DNA from: Anaerolineales bacterium
GTDB taxonomy: Bacteria; Chloroflexota; Anaerolineae; Anaerolineales; Villigracilaceae
Direction of reading: 5' to 3'
NCBI GenBank assembly: GCA_030018695.1
Contig: JASEHI010000015.1
Location: 1 to 43,117, forward strand
Length of the DNA stretch: 43,117 bases
Shown here: positions 13,358 through 23,551 of the stretch, in pieces
Layout: each line of letters begins with the position of its first letter
Numbering within the stretch: the stretch's first letter is position 1
Translations under genes and position numbers: made by a program
Notes under the pieces: model-generated
The model's database searches: none
Told to the model about the DNA's origin: nothing
What the model saw: the letters and a program-made list of their open reading frames with translations, nothing else

Positions 13358-13488
13358 GGGTGTGTTTTGAGTTGAGAGAGAACGTCCCGCAGGCGTTGCC
13401 CTGAGCCTGTCGAAGGGTTTGATTGAGCCAATTTAGCCGTCTTTCAAAACCTGCGGGACGGTTGTTTCAACTGATAAGAAACGCACCC
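13358..13488. mobile_element. Second copy of a MITE-like palindromic element, in the cytochrome operon leader
   Basis: Ends GGGTGTGTTTTGA and GAAACGCACCC, the inner stem CGTCCCGCAGG/CCTGCGGGACG, and the core CCAATTTAGCCGTCTTTC all match the element at 19705-19817. The copy is 131 bp because its loop holds an extra ~18 bp including CCCTGAGCCTGTCGAAGGG. The flanks GATTGATTT (13349-13357) and ATTTGATTT (13489-13497) agree at 7 of 9 bases, consistent with a decayed 9-bp target duplication. It lies between the promoter at 13510-13515 and the cytochrome b6 start. Confidence 0.85.
13399..13417. repeat. CCCTTCGACAGGCTCAGGG palindromic repeat nested in the MITE copy
   Basis: This 19-mer, here in reverse orientation, is identical to 25917-25935 inside the SDR gene. 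It accounts for most of the extra length of this element copy, so it appears to be a repeat within a repeat. Confidence 0.8.
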
Positions 13489-16446: not shown

Positions 16447-16722
16447 TTACGGATTCTTCAAACACTCATCGTGGTTGTCCACGTTGCGCAGGATACAGAT
16501 CGTCTCGCCCTCGGCGCTTTTTTCGTAATGCAGGGTGAAACGGTATTTCTGGTCCACTCGCACTTCCCAAATGCCACGGTGTCCCTCTATTTTTTTGGCG
16601 TGTAAAGACGGATGACGTTGATCCTGTCCAAAGAGCGCCAGCGCTTTCAGCGTTTTGGCTTGAATTTCACCAGGCAGCGCACGAAATGCTTTCGTGAACC
16701 GCGATGTACGACGGTGGATCAT
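16447..16722 (-). CDS. RelE/ParE-type toxin
   Basis: The product is 91 aa. The pattern FTKAFRALPGEIQAKTLKAL, then HPSLHAKKIEG...GIWEVRVDQKYRFTLHYE and a C-terminal ICILRNVDNHDECL fits the RelE/ParE superfamily, whose members cleave mRNA on the ribosome or poison gyrase. The conserved basic residues of the beta-sheet (K, R in EVRVDQKYRF) and the terminal His are present. It starts 3 bp after the stop of an AbrB-type antitoxin gene, the usual antitoxin-toxin order. Confidence 0.85.
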   Translation of the reverse strand: MIHRRTSRFTKAFRALPGEIQAKTLKALALFGQDQRHPSLHAKKIEGHRGIWEVRVDQKYRFTLHYEKSAEGETICILRNVDNHDECLKNP

Positions 16723-16725
16723 TTT

Positions 16726-17001
16726 TCATCCCCCGCTCAGATCGGCAATTAAGTCATCCATGCTGGTGAAATCTTGGTAGCGGCCCTCGATCAAATCATC
16801 GTCGGCTTCGCGCTCCCCATCCTGCCAGCGCTTGGTCCAGAAGTAGGCTTGGGAACGGTCAATCGCCACTTGGGGCGTCAAGCGGATGGAGCCATCCTCT
16901 TCGAGGTCGGCCACCAACATATCGCCTTCTTTCAGGTTGGCCTTGCGGCGCAAGGCGGTGGGCAGGGTGATCTGTCCATTGCTTCTGATTTGCAGTACCA
17001 T
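16726..17001 (-). CDS. AbrB/MazE-type (SpoVT-AbrB) antitoxin
   Basis: The product is 91 aa. The N-terminal swapped-hairpin DNA-binding domain is clear: QIRSNGQITLPTALRRK, then NLKEGDMLVADLEEDGSIRLTPQ. The C-terminal ~45 residues (acidic, W-containing) would neutralise the RelE-like toxin that follows 3 bp downstream. Such antitoxins also repress their own promoter; the region at 17052-17080 carries a fitting promoter. AAGGAG lies about 10 nt before ATG 17001. Confidence 0.87.
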   Translation of the reverse strand: MVLQIRSNGQITLPTALRRKANLKEGDMLVADLEEDGSIRLTPQVAIDRSQAYFWTKRWQDGEREADDDLIEGRYQDFTSMDDLIADLSGG

Positions 17002-18834: not shown

Positions 18835-19425
18835 ATGTTGACTCCCACCTCCCTCATCCTTGTCTGCCTCCTGCCGTCCCCGCGCGATCTGGAGATCGCG
18901 CGGCTGCTCGGCTGGTACCGCATCCCGTTCCGCACCGCCCCGAAAGTCGTCGCCGTGGACTATCTGGCTTTTTACCAGCCCGGCAGTTTCGGCGAACAAT
19001 CTGGCCGCATCGAGTGGACCGCGCCGGTCTGCGGCCACGAGCTGACCACGCGCGCCGAACTCCTGCGCGACGAACCGGATCATCCGCGCGCCCGCGAGGA
19101 ATACTTCAAGATACAGCTCGGCGCGCTGGAACGGCTGCCGCGCCCGGTCACGGCGGAGAAGTGGAAGCGGCTGACCTTTCTTTTCACCACCGGGGAATAC
19201 CTGCTGAAAGCGCAGACGCTCAACGATCTGGTTGTACAAAGCGACGAGCGCCAACTGCTGTGGCAATCGCTGCGCGAGCGGGCCGAGAACGAGCAACTCT
19301 ATAAAACTGATTTGCCGGAAGCGGATATTCCGCCGGAGGTGCTGATTGCGCTGTTGGGGATAAAAGAGGCAAAAGCACCATATGTTCCAGATGTACCAGA
19401 AGCACCAAAGGAGGAGGAATGGTAG
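18835..19425 (+). CDS. Hypothetical protein, 196 aa
   Basis: I do not recognise the family. The sequence is non-membrane, acidic at the end, and starts LTPTSLILVCLLPSPRDLEIARLLGWYRIPF. It has an aromatic-rich middle (YLAFYQPGSF) and a helical C-terminal half (EKWKRLTFLFTTGEYLL). It reads as a genuine conserved gene with normal codon use for this region. No clear ribosome-binding site precedes ATG 18835. The last residues (APYVPDVPEAPKE) come from a 9-bp repeat and supply the AAGGAGGAGG ribosome-binding site of the overlapping next gene. The true C-terminus may therefore have been extended by the repeat. Confidence 0.6.
   Translation: MLTPTSLILVCLLPSPRDLEIARLLGWYRIPFRTAPKVVAVDYLAFYQPGSFGEQSGRIEWTAPVCGHELTTRAELLRDEPDHPRAREEYFKIQLGALERLPRPVTAEKWKRLTFLFTTGEYLLKAQTLNDLVVQSDERQLLWQSLRERAENEQLYKTDLPEADIPPEVLIALLGIKEAKAPYVPDVPEAPKEEEW
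19375..19412. repeat. Nonamer repeat at the 3' end of the hypothetical gene
   Basis: Units GCACCATAT, GTTCCAGAT, GTACCAGAA, GCACCAAAG follow at 9-bp spacing. An inverted relative lies at 19927-19966, on the other side of the four-helix-bundle gene. Confidence 0.6.
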
Positions 19426-19918
19426 AGAAGGTTGAGAAAACCGAAAAAGGTTTCCGCAAGTTGTTGGTCTGGCAAAGGGCGCACCAATTGGTTTTGTCAA
19501 TCTACAAATTGACAGAAACTTTCCCGAAATCTGAGCTATTTGGATTGACTTCGCAAATGCGCCGTGCGGCGGTCTCGGTACCGGCCAATATTGCGGAAGG
19601 TTATGCGGCAGGAGGAAAAGGGCAGTTTGCTCGTTACCTCAATATCGCGCAAGGGTCGCTGGCGGAGGTTGAGTACTACCTGATCCTTACACATGATTTG
19701 AAATGGGTGTGTTTCAAATGAGTTGAAAGAAAGAACGTCCCGAAGGTTGAATTGAACCAATTTAGCCGTCTTTCAAAACCTTCGGGACGGTTGTGTCAAC
19801 TGAAATGAAACACACCCATTTGAAATACATCACGGATGTGCAATACCAGGGAGCCGAAACTTTACGCGGCGAAGTCGGCTTCCTCCTTCATCGTCTCATC
19901 CAATCGCTGGGGAAGTAG
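19419..19918 (+). pseudogene. Four-helix-bundle protein (S23/IVS-type) interrupted by a MITE-like element
   Basis: The frame starts at ATG 19419 after AAGGAGGAGG and shows the four-helix-bundle family pattern: LLVWQRAHQLVLSIYKLT, FGLTSQMRRAAVSVPANIAEG, GSLAEVEYYLIL. It is cut at codon 95 by the element 19705-19817 and would end WVCFK. Removing the element and one copy of the 9-bp duplication rejoins HDLK to YITDVQYQGAETLRGEVGF and LLHRLIQSLGK in frame, giving 125 aa, the normal family length, with stop TAG 19916-19918. The family is linked to intervening sequences in 23S rRNA genes in some bacteria, but its function here is unknown. Confidence 0.9.
19705..19817. mobile_element. 113-bp MITE-like element with 12-bp TIRs and 9-bp target duplication
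   Basis: The ends GGGTGTGTTTCA (19705-19716) and TGAAACACACCC (19806-19817) are perfect inverted repeats. ATTTGAAAT flanks the element on both sides (19696-19704 and 19818-19826). An inner stem CGTCCCGAAGG/CCTTCGGGACG and subterminal GAGTTGA/TCAACTG make most of the element palindromic. It encodes no transposase, so it must be mobilised in trans if it is still active. A second copy is at 13358-13488. Confidence 0.93.
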
Positions 19919-21490: not shown

Positions 21491-21544
21491 CACCAAGAGC
21501 ATCACCCCTTTTGAGCCACTTTTTTGATTGAAAGGAGAGATCCC

Positions 21545-22843
21545 ATGAAAAAGCATCTGCAGATGGTTTTTGCATTGGCGACCGCTGCCTCGCTGCTCTT
21601 GTCTGCCTGCGGCCCGTCCGGAGGGGAGGTCGCCCAATCGAAACTGAAGCGGGTGACGGATCCGGAAGTCGCTCCGTCCGACCTGACTGAACTGTCCGCA
21701 GGGAACAACGCCTTCGCCTTCGACATGTACCAGGCGGTGCGTCCCGCGGACGGCAACCTGTTCTACTCGCCCTACAGCATTTCCCTGGCCCTGGCGATGA
21801 CTTACGCCGGGGCGCGCGGCGAGACCGCCATCCAGATGGCGGAAACCTTGCATTACACCCTGCCCGCCGACCACCTGCATCCGGCTTTCAACGCCCTCGA
21901 TCTCGACCTGGCGCAGCGACCCGAGCAGGCTTCCGGTGTATCTGAAAAACAACGTTTTGAATTGAACATCGTCAACTCGTTGTGGGGACAAAAGGATTGG
22001 CCGTTCCTGCCCGGATTTCTCGATACGCTGGCGTTGAATTACGGCGCGGGGATGCGGCTGGTGGATTATCAGACTACCCCCGAACCGGCCCGCAAAGCGA
22101 TCAACGATTGGGTCAGCGATGAGACAAAAGGCAGGATCGAAGATTTGATCCCTTCGGGAGTGATAGACAGGTTGACGCGCTTGGTGCTGGTCAACGCCAT
22201 CTATTTCAAGGCCTCCTGGGATTATCCGTTCGAAGAATCGCTCACCGAAGATGGCCAATTCAAGCTGCTGGATGGCAGCCAGGTCAGCGTGCCGCTGATG
22301 TCGCTGGATACGCCTGAACGGTTGGGGTACGTTGATGGGGAGGGTTTTCAGGCCGTGTCGCTGCCCTATAAAGGCGGCCTGGCCGAGATGGTCATCCTGC
22401 TGCCCGACGAGGGACAGTTCGAAGCCTTCGAGGCTGCCCTGACGGCGGAGCGGTTCGCCGGGATCCTCTCCGGCATAAAGACCCAATCCGTGAATCTGAC
22501 CATGCCCAAATTTAGTTTTACCCGCGATCTCAGCCTGAACGAAGTGCTGGCTGGTATGGGCATGAGCGATGCCTTTGACCCCGATCGCGCCGATTTCTCC
22601 GGCATAGATGGCTCGCGCGACCTTTACATCCAGGCCGCGCTGCACAAGGCGTTCATCGCCGTGGACGAAGCCGGGACCGAGGCGGCCGCCGCCACCACGA
22701 TCATCATCGGGTTGACATCCATGCCGATATCAGAAATTAATATCAGGATTGACCGCCCTTTCATCTTCCTCATCCGCGACATTTCAACCGGCTCAATCCT
22801 GTTCCTCGGGCGGGTGGTAAATCCCGATTCTGACGGCGAGTAA
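21545..22843 (+). CDS. Serpin-family protease inhibitor, lipoprotein
   Basis: The product is 432 aa. AAAGGAGAG precedes ATG 21545. A lipoprotein signal ends LLLSAC, so the inhibitor should be anchored at the cell surface. The serpin fold is evident throughout: NLFYSPYSISLALAMTYAGA, NAIYFKASWDYPF, PKFSFTRDLSL. The hinge EAGTEAAAATT is a near-consensus inhibitory hinge, and DRPFIFLIRD follows the reactive loop. Counting from the hinge Gly as P15 places P1-P1' near Leu-Thr-Ser (IIIGLTSMP), so the target may be an elastase- or subtilisin-like protease. Serpins of this kind occur sporadically in bacteria, including Chloroflexota. It stands alone, followed by a hairpin and convergent TA genes. Confidence 0.93.
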   Translation: MKKHLQMVFALATAASLLLSACGPSGGEVAQSKLKRVTDPEVAPSDLTELSAGNNAFAFDMYQAVRPADGNLFYSPYSISLALAMTYAGARGETAIQMAETLHYTLPADHLHPAFNALDLDLAQRPEQASGVSEKQRFELNIVNSLWGQKDWPFLPGFLDTLALNYGAGMRLVDYQTTPEPARKAINDWVSDETKGRIEDLIPSGVIDRLTRLVLVNAIYFKASWDYPFEESLTEDGQFKLLDGSQVSVPLMSLDTPERLGYVDGEGFQAVSLPYKGGLAEMVILLPDEGQFEAFEAALTAERFAGILSGIKTQSVNLTMPKFSFTRDLSLNEVLAGMGMSDAFDPDRADFSGIDGSRDLYIQAALHKAFIAVDEAGTEAAAATTIIIGLTSMPISEINIRIDRPFIFLIRDISTGSILFLGRVVNPDSDGE

Positions 22844-22904: not shown

Positions 22905-23246
22905 TTATTCCACCTCACCGGCCAATTTCTCCAGAAGCGGTTTAAGAGGCGGTAATTCTTCGGTGATCACATCCCAGACGGTTTCGAGATCCACCCCCGC
23001 ATATTCGTGGATGAGTTTATCACGCATCCCCGCCATGCGTTTCCATGGGATGTCAGGATACTTTCTGCGGATTTCCTCAGGGATTCGTTTGGCGGCTTCC
23101 CCCATGACTTCCAGGCTGCGTATTACGGCGTTGATTGTCTTGCGATCACAGATGAAAGTCGCATAACTCATGCCATGGGTAAATTCTTCCACTTCCAAGA
23201 TGGAATCGAGAACATCGGCGATGTAATCTCCCCAAACTGGTTTCAT
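22905..23246 (-). CDS. hepT: HEPN-domain RNase toxin (HepT, DUF86)
   Basis: The product is 113 aa. The motif R-D-K-L-I-H-E-Y is the complete RX4HXY active-site signature of HepT toxins, which cleave RNA. IRSLEVMGEAAKRIP is typical of the DUF86 family. In characterised pairs the partner MntA adds AMP to the Tyr of this motif and blocks the RNase, so the conserved Tyr suggests the same control here. The start overlaps the MntA-like gene by 4 bp, which implies coupled translation. Confidence 0.9.
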   Translation of the reverse strand: MKPVWGDYIADVLDSILEVEEFTHGMSYATFICDRKTINAVIRSLEVMGEAAKRIPEEIRRKYPDIPWKRMAGMRDKLIHEYAGVDLETVWDVITEELPPLKPLLEKLAGEVE

Positions 23247-23551
23247 ACGGCGACCACCTCGTTCAAAATCTGCTGTCCAATGCGCGGTTTCAAGGCTTTC
23301 TTGGAGACTAGGTCAACCTTTGCCCCCAATACAGTTCCAAGATATTCTTCGAGTTCAAGGAACTTAAAGAATCCAATGGGTTTGGAGAATTCAACCAAAA
23401 TATCAATGTCGCTTGATTTTTTCTGCTCGCCGCGTAAAACTGAACCGAACAGGCCAATATCTTCGACGAAGTATCTGGCCTGAAGTTCGGGTTTCAGACG
23501 TTTGAGTGAATTCAGTATTATTTCTGCCTGGGGTGGGCGTTTCGCTGCCAT
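23243..23551 (-). CDS. mntA: MntA-type minimal nucleotidyltransferase antitoxin
   Basis: The product is 102 aa. The nucleotidyltransferase core is GLFGSVLRGEQKKSSDIDILVEF (G-S...R-G...S-D-I-D) plus a later acidic KVDLVS, so all three catalytic acids are present. It is expected to AMPylate and silence the HepT product encoded just downstream. No ribosome-binding site precedes ATG 23551. The minus strand reads TATACT at 23563-23558, which would place the transcript start at or next to the ATG, so a leaderless mRNA is possible. Confidence 0.88.
   Translation of the reverse strand: MAAKRPPQAEIILNSLKRLKPELQARYFVEDIGLFGSVLRGEQKKSSDIDILVEFSKPIGFFKFLELEEYLGTVLGAKVDLVSKKALKPRIGQQILNEVVAV

Follow-up and report, generated by a model that had tools for sequence, protein, structure and literature searches.

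A 113-bp MITE with ISKra4-type ends in an Anaerolineales bacterium, best read as carrying a REPIN-like hairpin

A four-helix-bundle gene of an Anaerolineales bacterium (Chloroflexota) is interrupted by a 113-bp MITE. It is highly probable that this element was put into the gene by a trans-acting DDE transposase of the ISKra4 family (p-MULT 4), and that its interior is a captured REPIN-like hairpin. The element is thus best read as a REPIN-like hairpin inside an ISKra4 MITE. The window, that is, the whole stretch of DNA that was analysed, is 43,117 nt long (contig JASEHI010000015.1); the host assembly (GCA_030018695.1) amounts to 2.86 Mb in 192 contigs and is 94% complete.

Insertion in a four-helix-bundle gene

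The insertion site comprises the following features:

19419 to 19918, plus strand: interrupted four-helix-bundle gene of the 23S rRNA-intervening-sequence protein (23S rRNA-IVP) family (PF05635, TIGR02436, ortholog L124)
19696 to 19704, no strand: left 9-bp target-site duplicate ATTTGAAAT, read directly; 9-bp duplicates also occur at other copies
19705 to 19817, plus strand: 113-bp ISKra4-ended MITE of subfamily A, from direct reading and genome copies
19705 to 19726, plus strand: left terminal inverted repeat GGGTGTGTTTCAAATGAGTTGA, perfect over its first 12 bp; L274 and L277, both autonomous elements, have these 22 bp as their left end
19796 to 19817, minus strand: right terminal inverted repeat GGGTGTGTTTCATTTCAGTTGA; the same 22 bp stand at one end of the autonomous element L256
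19818 to 19826, no strand: right 9-bp target-site duplicate ATTTGAAAT, read directly

Direct reading confirms an element of 113 bp with perfect 12-bp ends (GGGTGTGTTTCA and TGAAACACACCC), as the initial annotation had described it, and the inverted repeat reaches 22 bp with three mismatches (19/22 identical between ends). The perfect 9-bp target duplication that had been claimed is likewise present: ATTTGAAAT flanks the element as a direct repeat of exactly 9 bp. As ATTTGAAAT almost equals its reverse complement, the inverted repeat seems to extend through the duplicate. The duplicate was considered as part of a longer inverted repeat, and this was rejected; other copies are flanked by other 9-mers, and ATTTGAAAT therefore belongs to the target and not to the element.

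When 122 bp (the element and one duplicate) are taken out, an in-frame gene of 125 aa results; with the insertion present, the frame meets a stop after 100 codons. In profile searches, the uninterrupted reading scores 128.8 bits against PF05635 and 125.1 bits against TIGR02436. An ortholog from the same family as the host (L124, genome G019) is 75% identical and uninterrupted, and the alignment crosses the join. The proposed restoration of a 125-aa protein is thereby borne out. This ortholog, which is without the inserted sequence, supplies the empty site that was to be sought, and the contrary view of the element as a conserved part of the gene fails.

The element is short, has terminal inverted repeats and is non-coding. 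In agreement with the lack of coding capacity first noted, it has no frame of its own of at least 50 aa, only frames entering from the flanks. As DNA, the 131-bp stretch formed by the element and its duplicates folds with z = -9.8 relative to shuffles.

Elsewhere in the window, several frames were recognized by eye. Adjacent small frames on the minus strand (22905-23246 and 23243-23551) resemble a HEPN/MNT nucleotidyltransferase toxin-antitoxin pair, adjacent frames at 16447-17001, also on the minus strand, resemble an AbrB-type antitoxin and a RelE-type toxin, and a frame at 21524-22843 resembles a serpin with a lipoprotein signal.

Copies in the host genome and the target rule

The initial annotation would have been given up if no other genomic copies with matching ends existed. 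This objection falls, as the host genome contains some 40 more copies, which fall into at least three sequence variants. The 22-bp end matches 112 times in this 2.86-Mb genome, with 56 matches on each strand, and a reversed-pattern control has none on either strand of that genome, so the end cannot be attributed to chance. Many host contig ends fall within copies of the element. These contig-end copies were considered as ends of autonomous IS, which was rejected: the sequence there is that of the MITE.

The flanks of 41 end pairs were parsed for duplicates; at least two of these pairs evidently joined neighbouring ends by chance. Exact 9-bp duplicates occur at 23 of the 41 and three more have one differing position; exact duplicates of 10 to 12 bp are absent among the 41, and one parsed copy has a shifted 8-bp repeat. 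In about one-third of the parsed copies the duplicates are imperfect or absent, which is a matter of decay, recombination and tandem pairs. In subfamily A, all seven complete host copies have exact 9-bp duplicates and are 98-100% identical, indicating a recent spread. The targets of the parsed copies follow the consensus AWWTSAWWT, an AT-rich near-palindrome, and this is why the duplicate in the window resembles an inverted repeat. The element is therefore a member of a dispersed multi-copy family with target-site duplications.

The same window holds another member:

13358 to 13488, plus strand: second, older ISKra4-ended MITE of 131 bp, with flanks GATTGATTT and ATTTGATTT

Here, a 25-bp palindromic repeat (GGCGTTGCCCTGAGCCTGTCGAAGG) is inserted into one stem arm. 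Further palindromes lie within the stem of some copies (L034, L064, L172, L179): CCCTGAGCCTGTCGAAGGG, and another inside CCCTGAGCCTGTCGAAGGG. Doubly nested palindromes were observed at positions 199-344 of L172 and 226-348 of L179, with CCGTCTCGCACCGGCGTGCCGCCGATGTTCGCGGCACGAACGGTG inside the insert CCCTGAGCC..GTCGAAGGG.

ISKra4 transposons with the same ends

MITE-type ends are present in 15 of 61 related genomes. A search of the relatives with NF033572, the ISKra4 model, led mostly to ISKra4 elements with other ends; those of the right type were reached via a search seeded with a relic in genome G041, and then by an IS-specific end pattern, in which the ends continue IS-like rather than MITE-like. 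Matches of this pattern are confined to Chloroflexota records. In this way the full-length transposons for which the initial annotation had suggested looking could be found. In Anaerolineales bacterium BS150m-G17 (JADHTJ010000078.1), an intact ISKra4-family element of 1648 bp, L274, encodes a 507-aa transposase that scores 259 bits against NF033572 (cut-off 205). One of its ends equals the MITE left end GGGTGTGTTTCAAATGAGTTGA over 22 bp, the opposite end is GGGTGTGTTTCATTTGAGTTGA, and its 9-bp duplicate ATATGATTT fits the MITE target rule AWWTSAWWT. Two other elements, L256 (1724 bp) and L271 (1672 bp; transposase 293 bits, cut-off 205), contain full-length transposase genes between MITE-type ends, on contigs that terminate at the element end. 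Both keep the asymmetry of the MITE, with AAATGAG at one end and TTTCAG or TTTCGG at the other. The ends of the MITE thus match those of autonomous elements (L274, L256, L271 and L277), all in other genomes. More distant ISKra4 elements (L139, L145, L155 and L119) likewise combine GGG ends with exact 9-bp duplicates.

The prokaryotic Mutator-like elements (p-MULT) have inverted repeats of 18-39 bp and duplications of 8 or 9 bp, and p-MULT 4 is known in Chloroflexi (PMC3942029). The window element resembles ISKra4/p-MULT 4 as described there in its 22-bp repeats starting with GGG, its 9-bp duplicates and its occurrence in Chloroflexota, and also in having a partner element with an NF033572 transposase and the same ends. 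It differs in being gene-less and in its interior, which is unrelated to that of the IS. A circular transposition intermediate is a feature of ISKra4/p-MULT 4. Some ISKra4 elements are reported to insert 13-17 bp upstream of sigma-A promoters (PMC3942029), whereas the window element is located inside a gene.

Since L274 has the same ends, the same duplication length, the same kind of target and an ISKra4 transposase, the window element is assigned to the MITEs of the ISKra4 (p-MULT 4) family. Target duplications of 9 bp are not exclusive to ISKra4, as is well established; other families also make them. The element could be moved by another 9-bp-duplicating DDE family (for example IS1, IS903-type IS5 or IS4/IS50-type), with a convergent likeness to ISKra4 ends. 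We consider this extremely unlikely: the ends are identical over 22 bp to those of elements encoding ISKra4 transposases, duplication length and target preference are shared, and these ends were not met with any other transposase. L274, in particular, strongly disfavours another driver. What the comparisons of sequence establish is the insertion with a 9-bp duplication, the multi-copy spread and a partner IS that shares the ends and the target. The initial proposal of a non-autonomous element moved by a 9-bp-duplicating transposase is supported by the copies, their duplicates and the partner IS elsewhere. It had called this transposase unknown, which no longer applies, since L274 indicates the DDE type of the ISKra4 family (p-MULT 4).

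In the host assembly (94% complete), no intact transposase of the matching type was found, and a search with a close relative of the driver gave no match. Multi-copy IS are frequently lost from genome bins. The only ISKra4 trace in the assembly is a 57-residue piece on contig C160, which was considered as a likely driver and rejected, as it lies about 0.3 kb from differing ends (GGGTGTGCGTCAGTTTTTT). The MITE and the partner IS have no evident common sequence beyond the ends of 22-27 bp, and the MITE is therefore not a simple internal deletion of the IS.

A link of Nezha, a MITE of cyanobacteria, to an IS that is today classed close to ISKra4 is taken as a lead only. Nezha was described by Zhou et al. 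in 2008 and is cited in PMC3733652 and PMC10969869 as a bacterial MITE with inverted ends, and to that extent it resembles the window element.

Other arrangements of these ends were also observed. In two genomes, G041 and G013, ISKra4-like elements that have MITE-type ends (L136, 2781-4253, and L083) are interrupted by, or fused to, a transposase gene that resembles IS66 by eye. The same ISKra4-type ends enclose an unrelated interior (GTCGAGTA..) at position 1107 of L071 and at 1242-1392 of L059.

The interior hairpin as a separate module

The interior had been described as almost fully palindromic. It is indeed palindromic, but it is not a mere fold-back, since the hairpin module that it contains occurs widely without these ends. 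In the window, the module consists of:

19736 to 19748, plus strand: left arm of the interior hairpin, CGTCCCGAAGGTT, 13 bp, perfect; the module exists without MITE ends
19749 to 19776, plus strand: 28-nt hairpin loop; 26-30 nt in 72 of 75 distinct hairpins, with a mode of 28
19777 to 19789, plus strand: right arm of the interior hairpin, AACCTTCGGGACG, pairing with the left arm

The pattern ACGTCCCGMAGG-N20-50-CCTKCGGGACG was used to scan 150 relatives. It is found in 50 of them, belonging to 22 of 65 genera, with 0 to 77 matches per genome; the reversed control has no matches in the 150. In a set of 75 distinct hairpins the stem measures 13 bp, the pattern having left the last two pairs free, and past it the pairing drops to chance. 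The variable stem pair is A-T in 47, C-G in 27 and a mismatch in only one of the 75, under a pattern that permitted all four combinations. Stand-alone hairpins are numerous in the relatives, in genus g17 foremost, and lie mostly in short inter-frame gaps, near gene starts and ends. In an Rfam search, neither the 113-bp element nor the stand-alone hairpins gave a match.

The hairpin might simply serve the MITE as fold-back filler, in which case copies lacking the ends would be decayed MITEs and no REPIN-like module would be involved. Some copies do agree with this: L008, L171 and L194 have no ends, share the loop of the composite and are plainly decayed MITEs. However, the loops of 30 stand-alone hairpins from relatives are no more similar than expected (0.32 versus 0.30 when shuffled), although the lengths of stem and loop and the paired A-T/C-G changes are kept. 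The loops of ISKra4-ended composites are more alike (0.51 versus 0.34 for copies without ends), which indicates that the composite descends as a unit.

The hairpin also occurs in other surroundings. A second MITE-like family of the host, of about 140 bp, has the same stem with another loop, the ends TCTCAAAAAGAAGGGG and TCTCAATAACTTGGGG, and 8-bp duplicates. Its members are L189, L192, L197 and L198 (host contigs C134, C186, C115 and C123); duplicates read by eye are cggtattg for L189 and gcgcgccg for L197. A third context, with CACCTTACGCA flanks, is found in several genera; in its records (L213, L217, L218, L219 and L199) the hairpin is flanked by CACCTTACGCAGA and GGTGCGTAACATCA. The hairpin, in turn, is missing from some ISKra4-ended MITEs (L059, L082 and L100). 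It follows that the ends and the core are modules that can be separated.

At the intergenic site orthologous to L238 990-1043 (L279, L280), the congeneric genomes G463 and G473 have a different short palindrome, AGTGACAGTCACCT..AGGTGACTGTCACT, in the gap where G400 has the CGTCCCG hairpin.

Linkage to a RAYT-like gene

In a scan for Y1 transposases, 48 loci from 30 genomes were inspected. In three genomes, the gene of a 192-aa HUH protein has hairpins on both sides:

L326, 854 to 1438; L327, 759 to 1337; L328, 795 to 1379: hairpin-flanked RAYT-like Y1 transposase genes in Chloroflexota

One of these genomes, G233, has the most hairpins of all that were scanned. The only NCBIfam match of the protein is NF047646 (REP-associated tyrosine transposase), with 73.9 and 77.4 bits (cut-off 80), and it scores 44.5 bits against PF01797. 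At the other 45 Y1 loci inspected hairpins are absent, the one exception being an ISKra4-ended composite that lies close to a Y1 gene in L338; the 30 best-scoring loci are without hairpins, the RAYT-like ones being among the weaker matches. In most of the hairpin-rich genomes that were examined, among them the host, no RAYT of the linked type was found.

These comparisons, made at the level of sequence, establish the hairpin's independent existence and its linkage to a RAYT-like gene. Together with the loops at chance likeness and the hairpin's presence in a family that has different ends and 8-bp duplicates, the flanking of the RAYT-like gene makes it very unlikely that the hairpin is no more than filler of the MITE.

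It could also be imagined that the hairpin is a functional site of the host (operator, attenuator or terminator), spread by chance or conversion, and not a mobile REPIN. The conserved stem with its paired changes, the locations near gene ends and starts, and the small number of genomes with a linked RAYT would fit such a role. Against this, the hairpin is present in G400 and absent in G473 at the same intergenic site of congeneric species, its copy number per genome is very uneven, and its linkage to the RAYT-like gene speaks against a host site. We regard this explanation as rather unlikely.

REPINs, REP doublets that form a hairpin, are marked by conserved inverted arms, a spacer kept in length and not in sequence, compensatory changes and linkage to a RAYT (PMC3116915). 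The module resembles them in its inverted conserved arms, its spacer, whose length is kept while its sequence varies freely, and the compensatory changes in its stem; it is mostly extragenic, multi-copy, and flanks a gene similar to REP-associated tyrosine transposases. There are also differences. The arms are 13 bp, compared with REPIN 16-mers, and the total is only 54 bp; the GTAG foot is missing, the arms being CGTCCCGMAGGTT, in most cases preceded by AA and followed by RT; and the RAYT-like protein scores just under the curated cut-off. As the foot is missing and no such RAYT was found in most hairpin-rich genomes, the module is called REPIN-like and no more. CGTC-tagged REPs have stems of 8-9 bp, loops of 4-5 nt and an unpaired CGTC tag (PMC3733652). 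The module shares with them a short palindrome with CGTC at the end, but its stem is 13 bp, its loop about 28 nt and its CGTC paired, and on these grounds an assignment to this class was rejected.

Proposed mechanism

We infer that an ISKra4-type transposase is the mover, through the following steps. The transposase, either absent from the host or missed in the assembly, would mobilise the MITE in trans by recognising its ends of about 22 bp. It would then join these ends to the target AWWTSAWWT, AT-rich and roughly palindromic, where the strands are cut with a 9-bp stagger. Repair of the cut would duplicate the 9 bp and leave the gene truncated after 100 codons. One or a few capture events may have placed the REPIN-like hairpin between ISKra4 ends, and since then it would have been carried passively with them, the composite probably being moved by the DDE enzyme only.

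A more speculative extension, which we think has a small chance of being right, is that the hairpin is repeatedly recruited as a core by MITEs with unrelated ends because it benefits the composite, leading to elements of dual mobility. The recruiting families would be the ISKra4-type, the TCTCAA-ended with 8-bp duplicates and possibly the CACCTTACGCA-ended. The benefit might, for example, be that the RAYT drives amplification on single-stranded DNA, or that host transcripts are affected.

Significance

In the literature searched, which leaves out most subscription journals, no composite of an ISKra4 MITE and a REPIN-like hairpin is described. To our knowledge, an ISKra4 MITE built around such a hairpin is new, although the kind of MITE itself is already known. 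For one bacterial MITE, a full chain is available, from a precise insertion and an uninterrupted ortholog to a target rule and an intact partner that shares the ends and has a known transposase, which makes mobilisation directly testable. The element joins two classes of genome parasites, the single-strand REPIN/RAYT system with its Y1 enzyme and the MITE/DDE system, and it suggests that Chloroflexota harbour a REPIN-like population that has a RAYT-like gene of its own. If the reading given here is true, survival of a hairpin as a passenger of DDE MITEs would be a new route by which REPINs persist in genomes.
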